Shown here: positions 23,354-34,248 of the stretch, piece by piece
Numbering within the stretch: position 1 is the stretch's first letter
How the letters are laid out: every line of letters begins with the position of its first letter
From: Hyphomicrobiaceae bacterium
GTDB taxonomy: Bacteria > Pseudomonadota > Alphaproteobacteria > Rhizobiales > Hyphomicrobiaceae
Length of the DNA stretch: 35,005 bases
Direction of reading: 5' to 3'
NCBI GenBank assembly: GCA_017353825.1
Contig: JAFMSC010000002.1
Span: forward strand, 1-35,005
Made by a program: the position numbers and the translations under genes
Notes under the pieces: generated by a model
The model's database searches: none
What the model was told of the DNA's origin: nothing
Seen by the model: only the letters and a program-made list of their open reading frames with translations

Positions 23354-25360
23354 CTAGGCCACGGCGGGCCTTCGCAGCACCTCCACGTTCGACTTCTCCT
23401 CATTGGCGGCGAAGTGCAGCGGGCCGCCGCGGAAGGGTGCAAAACCGGTGCCGAAGATCACGCCGGCGTCGACGAGGTCGCCGCTTTCGACGATTTTCTC
23501 CTCGCGCACGCGCTCGGCCTCGTGGATCAGGGGGGCGACCAACTCGCGGCCCAGCCGCTCCAGCTCGCCCTTGTCCCATGCCGTCTGCGGCTGCGCCTTC
23601 TGAGGCTTGCCGTCCTTCCAGACGTAGAAGCCCTCGCCCGATTTCTTGCCGAGCTTGCCCGCCGCCACCATCTGGTCGAGCTTGGAGACACCCGGCGGCG
23701 CGATCTTCAGGATGTTGCCGACGCTGGCACACACGTCGAGGCCTACGGTGTCGGCCAGCTCGACGGGCCCCATGGGCATGCCGAAGGTGCGGGCGGCCTC
23801 GTCGATCTTCTCCTTCATCTCGCCGCGGTCCACGCGCTGCAGCGCCGCCATCATGTAGGGGCCGAGCACACGGTTGACGACGAAGCCGGGGCTACTCCGG
23901 GCGACCAGTGGGAGCTTGTCAATGGCGGTGACGAAATGACACCCCTTCTGCACTTCCTCTTCGCGCGTGTCCTTGCCGCGGATAACTTCGACCAGGGGCA
24001 TCTGCGCGACGGGATTGAAGAAGTGGATGCCGATCAGGCGGCCCCGATTGGCGAGCGGCTCGGCGATCTCTTCGATCATGATGGAGGAGGTGTTGGTGGC
24101 GAGCACGGCGCCGGGCTTGAGCGTGCCCTCGATCGCCTTGAACAGGTTTTGCTTGGACTCCAGCCGCTCCACGATCGCCTCGATCACCACGTCGGCGCGG
24201 CCGATATTGGCGCCGCTGGGATCGGCCAGCAGGCGGGCCGCGGCGGCATCGCGTTCCGCCTTGGTTCTGAACTTGCGCTGGAACAGTTGCTTCTGCTTGG
24301 CGATGCCCTTGGCGATCTGGTCGGCGTTCACGTCCTGCAGCGACACCTCCATGCCGGAGGCCACGCACCAGCCGGCGATGTCGGCGCCCATCACACCGGC
24401 GCCGATCACCTGCACACGCAGGGGCTTGAAGGGCACTTCCTTGGGCGCCTGCCCCTTCAGCATCTCCATGAGCTTGAACACGCGCCGCAGGTTGCGCGAG
24501 GTTGGGCCCATCATTAGCGGCGCGAACGCGCGCGTCTCCGCCGCCTTCATGCCCTCGAGATTGGCGGCATGGGTCTCGAACAGCTCGATGAGCTTGAAGG
24601 GCGCGGGATAATGGTCCTCGCGCCCCTTCTTGGCGGTCTCGTAGCGCAGCTTCTTGGCAAGCAACTCGCGCGCCGGCCATTGCCGCGCCAGGTCCTTCCA
24701 GAAGGCCACCGGCTTCGACTTCAGCCTGCGCTCGATCGCCTTGCGGGCGGCCCACGGCAGGCTGAGCGGGCTCGCCACCAGTTCGTCAACGAGGCCCATG
24801 CCGCGCGCGGCACCTGCGCGGATCATGGAGCCCTTCAACATCATGGGCATGGCGGTGAGCGCGCCGGCTTGGCGGATCGAGCGCGCGGTGCCGTTGAAGC
24901 CGGGGAAGAGCCCAAGTCGCACCTCGGGGAACCCGAGCTGCGTGGCGTCGTCGCGCGTGGCGATGCGCCAGTGGCAGGCGAGGGCCAGCTCCAGGCCTCC
25001 CCCCAAGCAGAAGCCGTGGATGCAGCACACCACGGGGATCGGCATGCGCTCGATCCGATCGAGGTAGCCGTTGACAAGGCTCACGCTCTCGATCACCTCG
25101 CGCTCGCTCGTCAGCTGCTCGAACTCGCGCACGTCGGCGCCGACGATGAAGCCCTTCTCCTTGCCCGAGATGATGATGAGCCCGACCAGGCGGCGATCGC
25201 GCGCGCCGCGCTCCACCGCCTGCACAATGGCGCCCAGCTCTTCCAGCGCGCGCCGGCTGAACGAGTTCTGGCTCTCGCCCTCGCGGTCGAAGACCGCCCG
25301 GGCAATGCCCCACATGTCGACCGAGTAGCGCCAGTCGCGCAGCGCGTTGATGTCCGTCAT
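23354..25360 (-). CDS. fadJ: Fatty-acid oxidation complex: enoyl-CoA hydratase / 3-hydroxyacyl-CoA dehydrogenase
   Basis: Crotonase domain (CCIHGFCLGGGLELALACHWRIA) + NAD-binding domain (VIGAGVMGADIAGWCVASGMEVSLQDV) + C-terminal HAD motifs (IGIHFFNPVAQMPLVEVIRG). Confidence 0.96.
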   Translation of the reverse strand: MTDINALRDWRYSVDMWGIARAVFDREGESQNSFSRRALEELGAIVQAVERGARDRRLVGLIIISGKEKGFIVGADVREFEQLTSEREVIESVSLVNGYLDRIERMPIPVVCCIHGFCLGGGLELALACHWRIATRDDATQLGFPEVRLGLFPGFNGTARSIRQAGALTAMPMMLKGSMIRAGAARGMGLVDELVASPLSLPWAARKAIERRLKSKPVAFWKDLARQWPARELLAKKLRYETAKKGREDHYPAPFKLIELFETHAANLEGMKAAETRAFAPLMMGPTSRNLRRVFKLMEMLKGQAPKEVPFKPLRVQVIGAGVMGADIAGWCVASGMEVSLQDVNADQIAKGIAKQKQLFQRKFRTKAERDAAAARLLADPSGANIGRADVVIEAIVERLESKQNLFKAIEGTLKPGAVLATNTSSIMIEEIAEPLANRGRLIGIHFFNPVAQMPLVEVIRGKDTREEEVQKGCHFVTAIDKLPLVARSSPGFVVNRVLGPYMMAALQRVDRGEMKEKIDEAARTFGMPMGPVELADTVGLDVCASVGNILKIAPPGVSKLDQMVAAGKLGKKSGEGFYVWKDGKPQKAQPQTAWDKGELERLGRELVAPLIHEAERVREEKIVESGDLVDAGVIFGTGFAPFRGGPLHFAANEEKSNVEVLRRPAVA

Positions 25361-25373
25361 GGTGTGTGCCTCG

Positions 25374-27878
25374 TCATTCTGCCGCGGCGCTCTCAATGGC
25401 GCGCGCGTTGTGCCCCGCCATCATGTAATGCGGCATCAGCTCCGCGGGATCGAAGTGGTCCACGGCAATCACACGCGCTACCAGCGCCTCCAGCTCGCGC
25501 AGCTGCGCCGCTTCCGCATCAGAGATGTCGCCCAGCTTCGCCGCATCGCCCACCCAGTCGGTGCCATGCACCCGGCGCACGCGGCCGGCGCGCACCGCGC
25601 GATCAAGCTTCCTCTCCGCCGTCTCGGCCGCCACGGCCTTGGCCAGGGTGACCTCCAACAGGCCGGTGGGATCGTCAGGGTTGTCCGACACATAGATGTA
25701 GCGGGTAAGGCGGTCGCGCACATCGCCAGGTGCCAGCACTAGCTCCACGCACTTGTGCGCAAGCCAGTCCGGCGCTGGCTTGTAGTGGGCACCAAGTGGG
25801 AACACCGCCAACCGCATCAGCCAGCGCACGGGAAACGAGGGGAAGTTGTCGATGTTGCCGCGCAGCGCCTCCTGAAAGCGGTGGAGGCCATTGCGGGCGC
25901 AGAGCGCCACGATGTGCCGGTCGCCCTCGGGCTTGCCGTCGTCCTCGTAGCGCTTCAACACGCAGGCGAGCAGGTAGAGCTCGGAGAGCGCGTCGGCGAG
26001 GCGGCCGGTGAGCTTCTGCTTGGTCTTGAGCCCGCCACCGAGCACGGCGACCGTGAGGTCGGCCACGAATGCGAAGTTGCGCGAGGCGCGCCACAGCTGG
26101 CGGTACGCCTCGGCCGTGCCGTAGGCCTTGTCGGGCACGCGCCCAAAGAGCCCGCCGGTGAGGTTGTGGAACGCCGCCCCGAACACGTTCGACACCGCGA
26201 AAGCGACGTGGTCGGTGAACGCCCGCTCGAAGGCCGCCAGCCCGCGCTCATCATCGCTGTCCTGACAGGCCTCGATCTCCTTGTAGAGGTACGGGTGCGA
26301 GCGCAGGGCGCCCTGTGCGAAGGTGATGAGCGAGCGCGTGAGGATGTTGGCGCCCTCCACCGTGATGGCCACCGGCATCATCTGGTAGGCGGACTGCAGG
26401 TAGTTGGACGGCCCGTCGCACACGCCCCGGCCACCGTGCAGATCCATGGCGTCGTTGACCGATCGGCGCATGCGCTCGGTGGTCTGGTATTTCATGATGG
26501 CCGAGATCACGGACGGCTTCTCGCCGCGGCTCACCATGGACGCCGTAACCCCGCGCGCCGCCTCGGTGACATAGGCGTTCTCCACCATGCGCGCGAGCGG
26601 CTCTTCCAGGCCCTCCATTTTGCCGATGGGGAAGTCGAACTGCTTGCGGATGCGCGCGTAGGCGCTGGTGTTGCGCAGCAGCGATTTCACGCCGGCCGCG
26701 GCCGACGAGGGGAGCGAGATGGAGCGGCCCGCAGCGAGGCATTCCATCAGCATACGCCAGCCCTGGCCCACCATCTTCTCGCCGCCGATCACCCAGTCGA
26801 TGGGGATGAAGACGTTCTTGCCCCATATGGGGCCGTTGGGGAACGCCGCACCCGAGGGCAGATGGCGCCGGCCGATCTCGACGCCTGGATGCCCCGCCGG
26901 AATAAGCGCCACTGTGATGCCGCGCTCCTCCCCGCCGCCCAACAGGTTGTCCGGGTCGAAGACGCGGAAGGCGAGGCCAACCAGCGTGGCCTGCGGCGCC
27001 AGCGTGATGTAGCGCTTCTCCCAGGAGAGGCGCATGCCGACGACCTCGTTGCCCTCGTGCATGCCGCGTTCGACGTAGCCCACGTCGCGCATGGTGGCGG
27101 CGTCGGAACCGGACGCGGGGCCCGTCAGCGCGAAGCACGGCACCTCCACGCCCTGGGCTAGGCGCGGTAGGTAGTGCTCTTGCTGCTCGGGGGTGCCGTA
27201 CTTTTCAATCAGCTCGCCGGGGCCGAGCGAGTTCGGCACCATAACAATAGTGCATGCGTCCGGGGAGCGCGAGGCGATGCGCCCGAGGATGAGCGACTGA
27301 GCCTGCGGTGAGAAGCCGAGGCCGCCGTGCGCTTTGGAGATGAGCATGCCGAGGAAGCCTTGACGCTTCACGAAGTCCCACACTTCCTTGGGAACTTCCC
27401 TTTCATTGTGGCGGATGGTCCAGTCCTTGAGCATGCGGCACAGCTCGTTGGTCGGGCCGTCGAGGAAGGCCCTCTCCTCCTCGGTGAGGGTAATGGGCGG
27501 AACGCTGCGCAACTTGCCCCAGTCGGGTTGGCCGGAGAACAGCTCGGCGTCGAAGCCGATGGTGCCGGCCTCCAAGGCGGCCTTCTCCGTGTCGGAAACC
27601 TTGGGGAGATTTCGCCTGATCAATTGGAACATGGGCCGGACCAGCAGGGCGTGCCGGATGGCCGGTACACACAGGGCCACAAGGACGGCTGCGACCACCC
27701 AGCCCGCGGCGCCGAGCCAACCCGGCGCCAGCTTATGGGGCGCGTCCATGAGGGCGCCGGTTTGCCACAGGAGCAGCGCCACGGCCAAGCCCGCCGCCCA
27801 GGCCCATAGCGGAGCCCGGCGCATGCCGAGCGCAAACGCACCGATGACGTAGAGGACCAGTAGCACCAGCTCGGGCAT
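25374..27878 (-). CDS. fadE: FadE-type acyl-CoA dehydrogenase
   Basis: N-terminal TM segments then LSWEKRYITLAPQATLVGLAFRVFDPDNLLGG..., FGDE-type acyl-CoA dehydrogenase core (DLHGGRGVCDGPSNYLQSAYQMMPVAITVEGANILTRSLITFAQGA). Confidence 0.95.
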   Translation of the reverse strand: MPELVLLVLYVIGAFALGMRRAPLWAWAAGLAVALLLWQTGALMDAPHKLAPGWLGAAGWVVAAVLVALCVPAIRHALLVRPMFQLIRRNLPKVSDTEKAALEAGTIGFDAELFSGQPDWGKLRSVPPITLTEEERAFLDGPTNELCRMLKDWTIRHNEREVPKEVWDFVKRQGFLGMLISKAHGGLGFSPQAQSLILGRIASRSPDACTIVMVPNSLGPGELIEKYGTPEQQEHYLPRLAQGVEVPCFALTGPASGSDAATMRDVGYVERGMHEGNEVVGMRLSWEKRYITLAPQATLVGLAFRVFDPDNLLGGGEERGITVALIPAGHPGVEIGRRHLPSGAAFPNGPIWGKNVFIPIDWVIGGEKMVGQGWRMLMECLAAGRSISLPSSAAAGVKSLLRNTSAYARIRKQFDFPIGKMEGLEEPLARMVENAYVTEAARGVTASMVSRGEKPSVISAIMKYQTTERMRRSVNDAMDLHGGRGVCDGPSNYLQSAYQMMPVAITVEGANILTRSLITFAQGALRSHPYLYKEIEACQDSDDERGLAAFERAFTDHVAFAVSNVFGAAFHNLTGGLFGRVPDKAYGTAEAYRQLWRASRNFAFVADLTVAVLGGGLKTKQKLTGRLADALSELYLLACVLKRYEDDGKPEGDRHIVALCARNGLHRFQEALRGNIDNFPSFPVRWLMRLAVFPLGAHYKPAPDWLAHKCVELVLAPGDVRDRLTRYIYVSDNPDDPTGLLEVTLAKAVAAETAERKLDRAVRAGRVRRVHGTDWVGDAAKLGDISDAEAAQLRELEALVARVIAVDHFDPAELMPHYMMAGHNARAIESAAAE

Positions 27879-27955
27879 GGCTTTCACCTCCCTGCAGGCG
27901 CGGCGAATCACGCCTGTTACGTCATGCTAGATCAAGGCCTTAAATCTAGGCTAAG

Positions 27956-28634: not shown

Positions 28635-30020
28635 TCATTTGACCTCCACCGTGAGCCGCATCGACGGGTGGATGCCGCAGAACGCCTCGTAGGTGCCCGG
28701 CTGGGGGAACCTTATCGTCACGCTCTCGCGTGGCTCCTGGGCGCCGGAGTTGAAGTTGAGCTTTGCGTCGAATATGCGCACGTTATGCGTGCGCGTATCG
28801 TCGTTGAGGACGGTGAGGGCCTGTGCCGCCTTGAGGCGAACGTGGCCGGGATTAAAGGTCTTGTTGATCTGGCTCACGACGGTGGCGTCCTGAGGCGGCG
28901 GTGGGCTCACGGGCCGGCCGCCGGCCACCCAGGGCTCGGTGGACGGTTGCGGAGGCGTGTCGCTCGACAGGGTCTCCAGGAACGCGACGAGGTCGGTGCG
29001 CTCGTCGTCGGTGAGACGCAGCTTCGCCGGCAGATCCCTGCTGCGCGTCGGGCGGTCTAACCCGCCCTCCTCGTAGTGCCGCAGCACGTCGTCAAGGGTG
29101 GCCAACGAGCCGTCGTGCATGTAGGGCGCGGTCCAAGCCAGCTCGCGCAGGGTTGGCGTCTTGAAGGCATGATCGGCGGCGGGCAGGCCGATCTCTTTGC
29201 CGCGTCCCCTGTCGCCGTCCGGCAGTCCGATGTCGTAGAAGTTGTGGTCCGTGAAGTCGAAGCCGACGTGACAGGAGATGCAGCGGCCTTTACCGGCGAA
29301 CAGCCGAAAGCCGCGCACTTCCGATGGGGTGAGCGCATCGGCCTTGCCGGCCACCCACGCATCGAAGCGCGTGGGCGGCGAGACCAGCGTGCGCTCGTAG
29401 GCGGCCAGTGCGCCGGCGATGCTGTGCGGCGAGACCTCCGGGTCCTCCGGGAAGGCCGCCAGGAACGCGCCCCGGTAGCTCTCGTCCCTGGCCAGGCGCT
29501 GCGCCGCCGTCTCCAGCGTGCTGCCCATCTCGTCGGGGTGTTCCACAGGAAAGTGCACCTGCTCTTCCAGGCTCGATGCGCGACCGTCCCAGAACAGGAG
29601 CGGGCTGAACGCCGCGTTCCACAGCGACGGCGTGTGGCGCGCGAGGCTCCGGCCGGTGACACCCTTGCCTCTAACCTCACCGTCCGTGAAAGCGAGGCGG
29701 GGATCGTGGCAGGAGGCGCAGGCGATCGTGCCGACCGAGGACAGGGCCTTGTCCGCGAACAGCCGCCGGCCCAGCGCGATCTTCTCGGGCGTGGGCGCAT
29801 TGTCGGCGGGATAGGGGACAAACCCCGGCCGCGTGAACTTCTCCTTCAGGCCCGCGAATGGGTCGGGCGACTGCGCTCTGGCCTGACGATCGATCGTGGC
29901 CGCCGGCTTGAGGCCCGCCAACGCGACGAAGACGGCCGCCGCACCCATGGCCGCCTTCAGTCGGCGTCCGCGCGACGTTGACACTGTCGGTCGTGGACGC
30001 ATCGGGGCCAGCTTGCTCAT
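28635..30020 (-). CDS. MauG/cytochrome-c-peroxidase-like diheme protein with fused C-terminal cupredoxin domain
   Basis: Two haem motifs CASCHDP and CISCHVGF; WNAAFSPLLFWDGRASSLEEQVHFPVEHPDEMG; KTPTLRELAWTAPYMHDGSLATLDDVLRHY; C-terminus THNVRIFDAKLNFNSG...ITIRFPQPGTYEAFCGIHPSMRLTVEVK. Confidence 0.9.
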   Translation of the reverse strand: MSKLAPMRPRPTVSTSRGRRLKAAMGAAAVFVALAGLKPAATIDRQARAQSPDPFAGLKEKFTRPGFVPYPADNAPTPEKIALGRRLFADKALSSVGTIACASCHDPRLAFTDGEVRGKGVTGRSLARHTPSLWNAAFSPLLFWDGRASSLEEQVHFPVEHPDEMGSTLETAAQRLARDESYRGAFLAAFPEDPEVSPHSIAGALAAYERTLVSPPTRFDAWVAGKADALTPSEVRGFRLFAGKGRCISCHVGFDFTDHNFYDIGLPDGDRGRGKEIGLPAADHAFKTPTLRELAWTAPYMHDGSLATLDDVLRHYEEGGLDRPTRSRDLPAKLRLTDDERTDLVAFLETLSSDTPPQPSTEPWVAGGRPVSPPPPQDATVVSQINKTFNPGHVRLKAAQALTVLNDDTRTHNVRIFDAKLNFNSGAQEPRESVTIRFPQPGTYEAFCGIHPSMRLTVEVK

Positions 30021-30874
30021 CGGGTCATGGAGGAGGTGTGGAGCTCGATTTGCGAGATCAGGGCCGACATCTCGCCCACATCGAGCGCCGGCTTGGGCGG
30101 CGGCAGCGGCGCGGGCCAGGCCGCCTTGAGCTTGCCGAACGCCGCGCGGACCTTGGCCAGGGAGTCGGCGTCGAGGAGCGGCGGGCCGGCTGCGGCTTCC
30201 TCGATGACGCGCTCGGCACGCCATACGAAACCGCGGCTGTCCTGGTACTCCACGGGCTTTACAAAGACGCCGTTCTCCATGGATTCCGCGTATTCCGACT
30301 GCGCCGAGCGCAGCACCTCGATCGCCGACTGGACCACGAAGCGCTGCTCCGGCCGCATGAACGTCTTGGCGGTCCCGAGTGCGGCGTCGATGCGCTGCTC
30401 AACCGGTTTCAGGGCCCGTTCGTAGGCGCCCTTGCGCTTGGCTTTGACGGTCTGGGCCAGCGCCTTGAGCTCGCGCCCAAAGGGCCGCATATTGTGCAGC
30501 TTGATGTACTTCTCCATCAGGCCGTAGAGCTCCTCGGTGGGGTGCAGGAAGTGCGGCAGTGCCTCGTCCCACAGCTCCAGGTCGATCAGCTGCTGACCGA
30601 CAAGCAAATGGCCGCGCGTCAGCTCGATGTCCCGGTAGAAGCGGACACGGGTGTCGGTCGGGCCGCCGTCGGTGAGGTAGGCCTCGCCGCCTTCGCCGGA
30701 GTTCAGGTTGGCGCCGCCGTTGAGCGCCGGCGGCAGCGGCGCGCCGTGGGCCTTGTGTTCCATCTCGTCATGGTCCACGTCCTGGGCGCCGATCCCCTGC
30801 GCCATCGAGGCGCTGGCGACGGTGGCAACACCGATGCCGACCCAAAGCTTGCGCGTGAACTTGGCCATAGCCAC
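30017..30874 (-). CDS. Secreted protein of unknown function, coupled to the diheme protein
   Basis: Signal peptide ...VGIGVATVASASMAQGIGAQD; helical mature region (GHLLVGQQLIDLELWDEALPHFLHPTEELYGLMEKYI); ATGA overlap with the downstream gene. Confidence 0.85.
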   Translation of the reverse strand: MAMAKFTRKLWVGIGVATVASASMAQGIGAQDVDHDEMEHKAHGAPLPPALNGGANLNSGEGGEAYLTDGGPTDTRVRFYRDIELTRGHLLVGQQLIDLELWDEALPHFLHPTEELYGLMEKYIKLHNMRPFGRELKALAQTVKAKRKGAYERALKPVEQRIDAALGTAKTFMRPEQRFVVQSAIEVLRSAQSEYAESMENGVFVKPVEYQDSRGFVWRAERVIEEAAAGPPLLDADSLAKVRAAFGKLKAAWPAPLPPPKPALDVGEMSALISQIELHTSSMTR

Positions 30875-31015
30875 CCTCCTTCGGCTCCGGCGGGCTGTGC
30901 TGGGTGAAGTATACTCTGATTTTCAAGAATATGCGGTAGACGAGCGTCAGGACCCTTTCCGCGCCCCTTCGTGTTATATCTCCACCCCTAAGAAGGGGTT
31001 GACCCGTCTCGACGC

Positions 31016-31851: not shown

Positions 31852-33903
31852 TCATTCCGCCGCGGCCCGGTGCGCGGCGAGCACGTTGTCGGCCAGCTTA
31901 CCCGTCAGTTCAGCCAGGTGGTGGAACTTCGCGGTATACGTGCCGACGCCGGCGGTGGCCGAGCGCAACTCCACGATCAGGTCCTGGATCTCCGACTCGG
32001 GCAGCTGCGCCCGCACCACGTCCCAACCCGGCCAGCCCTCGCGGGCATCGAAGCCCAGGATCTGGCCGCGCCGCTGCGAGATCATGGCGTTGACCTTCGC
32101 GGTGGCGTCGGACGGTATCGCGATCTCCACTTCCATCACCGGTTCCAGCAGCACCGGGCTGCACTTGGGCACGCCCTCGGCCATGGCGATGCGGCCCGCC
32201 TGGCGGAAGGCCATGTCGGAGGAGTCTACTGAGTGATACGAGCCGTCCGTGAGCGTCACGGCCACGTCCACCACCGGAAAGCCGCCCAGCGGCCCTCTCT
32301 GCAGGTAGTCCTGCACGCCGATTTCCACCGAGGGGATGAACTGGCGCGGCACCACCCCGCCGGTGATGGTCTCGGCGAACTGGAAGCCGGTGCCGCGCGC
32401 TAGCGGCTTGATGTCGATGACCACGTCGCCGAACTGACCGTGGCCGCCCGACTGCTTCTTGTGCCGGCCGCGGACCTCGATCCCCTTGCGGATCGTCTCC
32501 TTGTAGGGCACCTGGCGCGGCCTCGACTCGGCGTCCACGCCGTACTTGCGCTTGAGCCGCTCCAGGGCGACGCGCAGATGCATCTCGCCCTGGCCCCAAA
32601 GTACCATCTGATGCGTGTCCTTGGCATGGTCTAGGCGCAGCGACGGGTCCTCCTCGGTGAGCTTGGCCAGCGCGGCCGTCAGCTTCACCTCGTCCTTGCG
32701 GTCCTTGACGCCGATGGCGATGCCGTAGACGGGCTGCGGCGGCTCAGGCGCAGCGACTTGCGTGCAGCCCGCCTTGTCCGCGGAGAGCGTTTCGCCGGAG
32801 AGCGTCTTCTCGAGCCGCCCCAGAGCCACCGTCTCGCCGGCCTTCGCCGGCCCGCGCTTGCGCGCCTCCTGGCCCATCAGCGAGAACGCCGCCGCCGCCC
32901 GCTCCTCGGCGTGGGGGCCATGCACCACCGTGCCTTCGCCGAACTCGCCTGCCAGCACGCGCACCACGCTCATCTTGCCGCCGTGCGGGGTATAGACCGT
33001 CTTGATCACGTGGGCCGCCGATTTGACGTTCTCAAGCTTCAGCCGCTTGGCGGTGCGATCGACAAACGGGGCCTCGTGGCGCAGGGCCTTCAGGAGGCGC
33101 AGGATACCGTTACCGTTCTCGGCCGAGCCCAGCAGCACCGGCACGATCAGGCCCTCTTGCATGTCCTTGACCAGATCGGCGAACACCTTATCGCGCGTGG
33201 GCTGCACGTCGGCGAGCAGCTGCTCCATCAGCTCGTCGTCGTAGTCGGCGAGCTGCTCCAGCATGCGAAAGCGCGCCTCGCTCTCCCGGTCCTTGAGCGC
33301 CGTCGGGACCTCGACCACCTCGGCATTGGCCTGCTTGCGGTAGACGAACGCGCGTTCGAGCGCGAGGTCGACGACGCCGGATGCCCCGCCGTTCTCCCAG
33401 ATCGGTATCTGCCGCAACACCAGCGGCTTGGTGCTGGCGGGCTGTAGGGTGGGCAGGATGTCGCGCACGCGCGCGTCGAAGGAATCGATCTTGTTGAGGA
33501 ACAGGAAGCGCGGGATGCCGCGGTCCTCCAGTCGCTTCAGGATGAGCTGCAGAGCGGCTACGCGCTTGGGGTCGGGTTCGCACACGACGACGGCGGCATC
33601 GCACGCGGTGAGCGCAAGCGCCCCCTCGTGCTGGAATTCGATGGAGCCTGGACAGTCGATGAAGGTGAAATTGTCGCCGAGGAAGGTTGCGTCAGCAATG
33701 TTCAGCTCGACGCTCATGACGTGGTCGCGCGCCTCCGGGGAGGCGTCGCCAACGGTGTTCTTGTCGGCAACCACGCCCTGCCGGGTGACGGCGCCGCAAC
33801 GGGTCAGGATGGCTTCGAGCAGAGTGGTTTTGCCAGAGAGATAAGGCCCAACCAGTGCGATGCAGCGGGAGCTGCGGCCGGCCGGGCCAGCGGATTGCCC
33901 CAT
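31852..33903 (-). CDS. EF-G-like translational GTPase paralog (FusA2 type)
   Basis: CIALVGPYLSGKTTLLEAIL, FTFIDCPGSIEFQHEGALAL, FLFLNKIDSFD, domain IV/V regions (GHGQFGDVVIDIKPL, VMEVEIAIPSDATAKVNAMISQRRGQI). Confidence 0.93.
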   Translation of the reverse strand: MGQSAGPAGRSSRCIALVGPYLSGKTTLLEAILTRCGAVTRQGVVADKNTVGDASPEARDHVMSVELNIADATFLGDNFTFIDCPGSIEFQHEGALALTACDAAVVVCEPDPKRVAALQLILKRLEDRGIPRFLFLNKIDSFDARVRDILPTLQPASTKPLVLRQIPIWENGGASGVVDLALERAFVYRKQANAEVVEVPTALKDRESEARFRMLEQLADYDDELMEQLLADVQPTRDKVFADLVKDMQEGLIVPVLLGSAENGNGILRLLKALRHEAPFVDRTAKRLKLENVKSAAHVIKTVYTPHGGKMSVVRVLAGEFGEGTVVHGPHAEERAAAAFSLMGQEARKRGPAKAGETVALGRLEKTLSGETLSADKAGCTQVAAPEPPQPVYGIAIGVKDRKDEVKLTAALAKLTEEDPSLRLDHAKDTHQMVLWGQGEMHLRVALERLKRKYGVDAESRPRQVPYKETIRKGIEVRGRHKKQSGGHGQFGDVVIDIKPLARGTGFQFAETITGGVVPRQFIPSVEIGVQDYLQRGPLGGFPVVDVAVTLTDGSYHSVDSSDMAFRQAGRIAMAEGVPKCSPVLLEPVMEVEIAIPSDATAKVNAMISQRRGQILGFDAREGWPGWDVVRAQLPESEIQDLIVELRSATAGVGTYTAKFHHLAELTGKLADNVLAAHRAAAE

Positions 33904-34248
33904 GAGTTCCTCCTCAATTTTGCGCTCAGGCAATGGGACGCCCCCAGCTCGCGCGCGCCCCGCGCCTGAGCTTCATGGGGCGCGTGACAGTATCGTGAAC
34001 CCGCGCCTCAGCCGGCGCAAGCGCTAACGGGGCCCCAACAGTTCGAGGGGTGCGCCCGACGCTCTTGCTGCATATGCGAGACCGAACAGTCACGATCTTT
34101 TCAACCGAAACTTGAGCGTCGCCACGAAGTGCCCGCAAATCGGGCGTACACAGTGGGTCAGACGCGGACAAGGACAGGGCTTGGAGCCGCAGGTTTGGCA
34201 GGAATTTTTGGCTGGAACCAACGCCTGGGCGTGCGGGTTTGGAGCGTC

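Follow-up and report, generated by a model that had tools for sequence, protein, structure and literature searches.

A gene of a soil-type alphaproteobacterium of the family Hyphomicrobiaceae encodes a single exported polypeptide in which a diheme domain of the MauG/bacterial CcP (bCcP) type is joined to a C-terminal cupredoxin. This architecture is real, conserved among relatives, built from known parts, and apparently undescribed: a search of open-access papers found no account of a MauG- or CcP-cupredoxin fusion. On balance, we lean towards the view that the protein (P0001) works in the periplasm as a diheme peroxidase of the MauG type, with its own type-1 copper domain as the point of electron entry, within an iron-homeostasis module.

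Architecture and distribution of the fusion

The window (the whole stretch of DNA analyzed, 35,005 nucleotides) carries the fusion gene as one exact coding sequence, running from an ATG at 30020 to a stop at 28635 and encoding 461 aa (Table 1). Pfam assigned CCP_MauG (PF03150) to residues 78 to 227 (182 bits versus a gathering score of 25.6) and Cytochrom_C to residues 236 to 352, and the fold matches of the diheme part are bCcP, MbnH, YhjA, and MauG structures. Only two CxxCH motifs are present (C101-H105 and C247-H251), and the AlphaFold2 model of the whole protein has a mean pLDDT of 85. The initial annotation had proposed two haem motifs followed by a C-terminal cupredoxin; both were found (the former as CASCH and CISCH), with Pfam and PDB sequences in agreement. 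Elsewhere in the window, a FadE-type acyl-CoA dehydrogenase gene (25374-27911, reverse strand) is followed downstream by an ORF (23354-25396) that has a FadB-type look by eye.

Table 1. Features of the fusion gene and its neighbors (window coordinates)
Feature	Position	Strand	Basis
Diheme-cupredoxin fusion CDS, P0001	28635..30020	-	ORF, Pfam, PDB sequences, AlphaFold2, homologues
N-terminal export signal region, residues 1-50 (hydrophobic AAAVFVALAGL, low pLDDT)	29871..30020	-	Sequence, AlphaFold2
CCP_MauG-type diheme domain, residues 78-352	28965..29789	-	Pfam, PDB sequence and fold matches
Haem 1 (peroxidatic), CASCH, residues 101-105	29706..29720	-	Sequence; invariant among homologues
Haem 2 (six-coordinate), CISCH, residues 247-251	29268..29282	-	Sequence; invariant among homologues
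Tyr316, position of MauG axial ligand Tyr294	29073..29075	-	Alignment offset; invariant in fused proteins
Pro-rich linker, residues about 356-378, low pLDDT	28887..28955	-	Alignment, AlphaFold2
C-terminal cupredoxin domain, residues 380-461	28638..28883	-	Pfam, AlphaFold2, PDB profile matches
Type-1 copper ligand span (H412, C448, H451, M454; predicted)	28659..28787	-	Sequence, homologue alignment
P0002, 285 aa, signal peptide, helical bundle, no known family	30017..30874	-	ORF, alignment, AlphaFold2
Divergent promoter region, P0002/dioxygenase gene	30875..31015	.	ICE-like site search
PiuC/YbiX-type Fe2+-dependent 2OG dioxygenase, divergent from P0002	31016..31675	+	Family model above cut-off

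The same domain architecture, for which the initial annotation had suggested a search, was found in 13 genomes. Eight further genomes from the genus and family encode fused homologues with 47 to 76% identity. The cupredoxin profile was run across 84,980 species genomes, with patterns that reach close relatives only, and returned 11 loci, all in Hyphomicrobiales; seven were metagenome-assembled genomes (MAGs) already found, and the further four (Chelatococcus albus, C. caeni, C. sambhunathii, and Microvirga massiliensis) all encode the fused form. The 13 distinct fused loci thus comprise Hyphomicrobiaceae MAGs, three Chelatococcus, and one Microvirga. No fusion was detected outside the order at an E value of ≤1e-70 among 399 genomes of the phylum. 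Because it recurs in 13 genomes, the architecture is far beyond what chance would produce, and an assembly chimera or frameshift is ruled out, as four of these genomes come from named strains (L046, L047, L048, and L051). Both haem motifs are kept in all 13 loci.

Copper domain

The Pfam model Cupredoxin_1 matched residues 382 to 455 of P0001 with 27.1 bits (cut-off, 27.0). Independently, PDB sequences place the domain near amicyanin and plastocyanin, and its profile matched NirK-type and amicyanin/plastocyanin structures with E values from 5e-11. The type-1 copper ligand set is complete, and copper binding is predicted; the His...Cys-x2-His-x2-Met pattern initially read as such a site corresponds to H412, C448, H451, and M454. 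The structure prediction suggested for this site bears out the fold and the loop position of the ligands: AlphaFold2 returned an eight-stranded cupredoxin (pLDDT about 77 to 95, block means) in which H412 and the C448-x2-H451-x2-M454 loop occupy the loops expected of a type-1 site. The likeness to amicyanin extends to the cupredoxin fold and the copper-ligand loop. In contrast to amicyanin, the copper domain is fused, is not accompanied by methylamine dehydrogenase (MADH), and scores only 24 bits with TIGR02657 (cut-off, 110.2).

A cupredoxin that served only for docking or for holding copper, exchanging no electrons with the haems, would accord with the long, flexible Pro-rich linker and with the loss of His451 in one homologue (the G018 fusion, L010:1459-2778), where Gln replaces this copper ligand. 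However, the four ligands are intact in 12 of the 13 fused loci, and a ligand-complete separate cupredoxin is kept beside the diheme gene in related genomes; we consider such a restricted role improbable.

Haem chemistry and comparison with known diheme enzymes

All of the fused proteins share W144, Q154, P158, and E164, which are spaced as W93, Q103, P107, and E113 of MauG, so that P0001 has both the inter-haem Trp and the Gln/Glu peroxidatic pocket. By alignment offset, the likewise invariant Y316 falls on MauG Y294, and its ligation of the haem is predicted. In classical bCcPs, a Met occupies the axial ligand position of the high-potential haem; in P0001 a Tyr is found there. Together, a Tyr at the six-coordinate haem, an inter-haem Trp, and a catalytic Gln/Glu pair point to MauG-type bis-Fe(IV) chemistry, as judged from conserved residues. 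BthA, which is also Tyr-His-ligated, forms bis-Fe(IV) and can nevertheless use an external donor to reduce H2O2 (PMC6405878).

P0001 shares with MauG the fold, the two c-haems, the inter-haem Trp, the Gln/Glu pocket, and the Tyr position, and is about 31% identical to the MauG structure 3l4m over the fold match. Unlike MauG, it carries a cupredoxin and has iron-type neighbors, and the genus yielded no mau genes. The analogy to methylamine dehydrogenase systems drawn in the initial annotation does not hold. The MauG model TIGR03791 scored 268.8 on P0001, below its cut-off of 443.85, whereas MauGs from mau clusters of the same family, used as positive controls, scored 458.9 and 453.5. The MADH small subunit was not found in five genomes of the genus (G000-G003 and G005), the window genome (84% complete) among them, in a search for which G026 and G045 were positive controls. 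On the model score and the lack of MADH in these genomes, a true MauG of the methylamine pathway is rejected.

With classical bCcPs the fusion has in common the fold and the peroxidatic pocket, and 3o5c is its best PDB sequence match. It differs from them in the Tyr at the Met ligand position and in having the donor domain in the same chain, whereas bCcPs take electrons from separate type-1 copper proteins (PMC10301912). The tri-haem peroxidases YhjA and QPO likewise add a domain for electron entry to a peroxidase core within one chain (9qdt match). However, the extra domain of P0001 is a C-terminal copper domain rather than an N-terminal haem domain, a third N-terminal c-haem is absent as there are two CxxCH motifs, and quinol donors are not implied. 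MbnH, a MauG-like protein of copper homeostasis (6e1c), has the same MauG-like diheme fold, but the fusion scored only 217.6 with TIGR04039 (cut-off, 362.85) and differs in its cupredoxin and its PiuC/iron neighbors.

The upstream partner P0002

P0002 lies upstream of the fusion gene, which it overlaps by 4 bp (ATGA, 30017-30020). P0002 matched nothing in Pfam, NCBIfam, or the PDB sequences and gave no significant fold match; its model is a confident helical bundle. Six of its residues are invariant (H89, H108, H111, E115, E209, and D212), and this His/Glu/Asp set suggests that P0002 may bind metal. Distant relatives of P0002 in genomes or loci lacking the fusion still adjoin PiuC (G018, G028, G167, G193, G245, and G271), and PiuC adjoins members of the family wherever the context is readable.

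The exported P0002, encoded by an adjoining and overlapping gene, would be a candidate substrate if the fusion were a protein-modifying oxidase of the MauG/MbnH kind, with the copper domain accepting or storing the released electrons. The MauG-type Tyr ligand and inter-haem Trp would suit such an enzyme. However, P0002 relatives exist without a nearby diheme fusion and have the same invariant Tyr residues, and no Trp of P0002 is conserved across all fused loci. Moreover, the equivalent of the substrate-docking Trp199 of MauG is Gly245, although the mau-cluster MauGs examined here lack this Trp, too. We therefore regard protein modification as a poor prospect.

Iron-related gene neighborhood

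P0002 and PiuC adjoin the fusion at 11 of the 13 fused loci (the window, G001, G002, G003, G005, G022, G034, the three Chelatococcus, and Microvirga; in G002 the contig breaks inside the fusion gene). In the other two, G050 and G018, the fusion lacks these neighbors, which counts against the preferred reading, as does the copper ligand lost in G018. In G018, a P0002-PiuC pair is located elsewhere in the genome (L140). Bacterioferritin is encoded nearby in five relatives (G001, G002, G003, G005, and G034; the G003 contig ends inside this gene), and Bfd and a RirA-like Rrf2 regulator are also present in four of these five loci. The corresponding Rrf2-Bfd-Bfr set of the window genome is on a different contig from the fusion, which again counts against that reading.

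Loci were searched with what we take to be the ICE/Irr-box consensus. In two loci of 16 to 18 kb (L051 and L038), the sole Irr-box-like matches fall in the P0002/PiuC promoter; no Irr-box- or ICE-like site was found in the promoter of the window or in L046, a further point against the preferred reading. The ccpA promoter of Rhodobacter sphaeroides is a binding target of Irr (PMC3413700). Overall, as the fusion adjoins iron-handling genes, it seems to serve iron homeostasis and not a methylamine pathway. Its iron context, not remarked on in the initial annotation, is reasonably supported, while any iron chemistry is hypothetical. Other genes in these neighborhoods include one for an elongation factor G-like protein (EF-G domains, Pfam) adjoining the iron genes of the window (31852-33933, reverse strand) and one for a DUF6746 protein adjoining PiuC (L108:7630-8001), with a similar-looking protein at L107:10089-10493.

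The same neighborhood would allow an Efe-like role in iron oxidation and uptake. P0002 would hold periplasmic Fe2+, the copper would take an electron from it, and the diheme center would pass electrons to H2O2, leaving Fe3+ for storage or uptake; the electron source would be iron and not a respiratory donor. Parts of the same kinds occur in EfeO (cupredoxin plus helical imelysin) and the EfeB peroxidase, although joined differently (PMC3143127, PMC9174327). Both systems combine a cupredoxin and a peroxidase with a helical protein that probably carries metal ligands, but here the cupredoxin is attached to the peroxidase instead of the helical protein, and the enzyme is a c-type diheme protein. 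The invariant His/Glu/Asp residues of P0002 and its linkage to PiuC also favor this explanation, as does the scarcity of M75 (imelysin) proteins, which occur in 1 of 8 P0002 genomes versus 239 of 390 others of the order, an anticorrelation that ignores phylogeny (Fisher P = 0.008). No M75 protein was found in the window genome. However, P0002 is unrecognizable as M75, and its identification as an imelysin is unsupported by sequence or significant fold matches. The locus encodes neither an M75/imelysin component nor the FTR1 permease of EfeUOB; FTR1 is found in only three of nine fused genomes and is not linked to the fusion, the single copy in the window genome being on another contig. Efe-like iron oxidation is thus an unlikely explanation, if a more credible one than protein modification. 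There is a similarly small chance that the locus represents a new periplasmic iron-oxidation module in Hyphomicrobiales, in which one chain unites the cupredoxin and peroxidase functions that are divided between proteins in the Efe system, and an undescribed, PiuC-tied family of helical metal-binding proteins (P0002) replaces imelysin.

Unfused relatives and origin of the fusion

Elsewhere in the order, matches to the cupredoxin profile are mostly stand-alone cupredoxins. The 12 best-scoring of these all have a MauG-like diheme gene in the vicinity, eight within 1.5 kb and four within about 3 kb, and the next-ranked one adjoins a catalase-like gene. As the closest stand-alone cupredoxins in other families adjoin MauG-like diheme genes, the fusion joins two genes that were linked beforehand. 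True mau clusters of the same family likewise pair amicyanin with MauG.

The diheme tree has one group of true MauG and diheme proteins with a separate neighboring cupredoxin and a second group of fused proteins and unfused paralogues. Placing the fused proteins in a single clade was not rejected (p-AU, 0.239), a result with which a single origin is compatible. Unfused paralogues adjoin neither P0002 nor PiuC. One of them, 51% identical, is encoded in the window genome (L002:1501-2601), where, judged by eye, the gene upstream of it looks like one for 5-aminolevulinate synthase.

Several loci with separate genes also encode sensor-like proteins. Diheme-cupredoxin gene pairs are followed by a sensor-like gene in L095, L096, L097, L100, and L101; that of L096 encodes a methyl-accepting chemotaxis protein, which weakly matches a four-helix-bundle sensor. 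In L090, L091, L093, and L094, the diheme gene is grouped with genes for an unnamed membrane protein, a cupredoxin, and a large sensor-like protein, which has PAS, GGDEF, and EAL domains in L090. At L104:6511-10421, a cupredoxin gene lies between a catalase-family gene and one encoding a GGDEF-EAL protein.

Proposed mechanism and significance

In the peroxidase mechanism that we prefer, H2O2 would react at the five-coordinate haem 1 in the Q154/E164 pocket, and oxidizing equivalents would spread via W144 to haem 2 with its His/Tyr ligation. The Cu(I) of the fused cupredoxin would then supply two electrons, one after the other, to return the enzyme to its resting state. Classical bacterial peroxidases can draw electrons from type-1 copper proteins, and in YhjA an additional domain for electron entry is fused to a core of this kind (PMC10301912); from these analogies, we infer an electron path from copper to haem 2, haem 1, and H2O2. 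Intramolecular copper-to-haem transfer, as proposed in the initial annotation, is plausible because such donors are known and because separate cupredoxins adjoin MauG-like diheme genes in related genomes. Produced together with P0002, which has a metal-binding look, and adjoining the PiuC-type dioxygenase, the fusion would form part of an iron-homeostasis module, where it would most likely remove peroxide, and possibly oxidize Fe2+, at sites of iron handling. The architecture, its conservation, the haem and copper motifs, and the gene linkage are observed, whereas metal loading, electron direction, peroxidase activity, and the iron role are all inferred here.

Transfer from type-1 copper to a bis-Fe(IV) center is normally studied in a transient two-protein complex. 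If the diheme site is supplied by copper of the same chain, the fusion would offer a natural single-chain system for measuring this step. It further connects the MauG-like enzymes, a group mostly without an assigned role, with iron homeostasis and places a testable function beside an uncharacterized PiuC-linked protein family.
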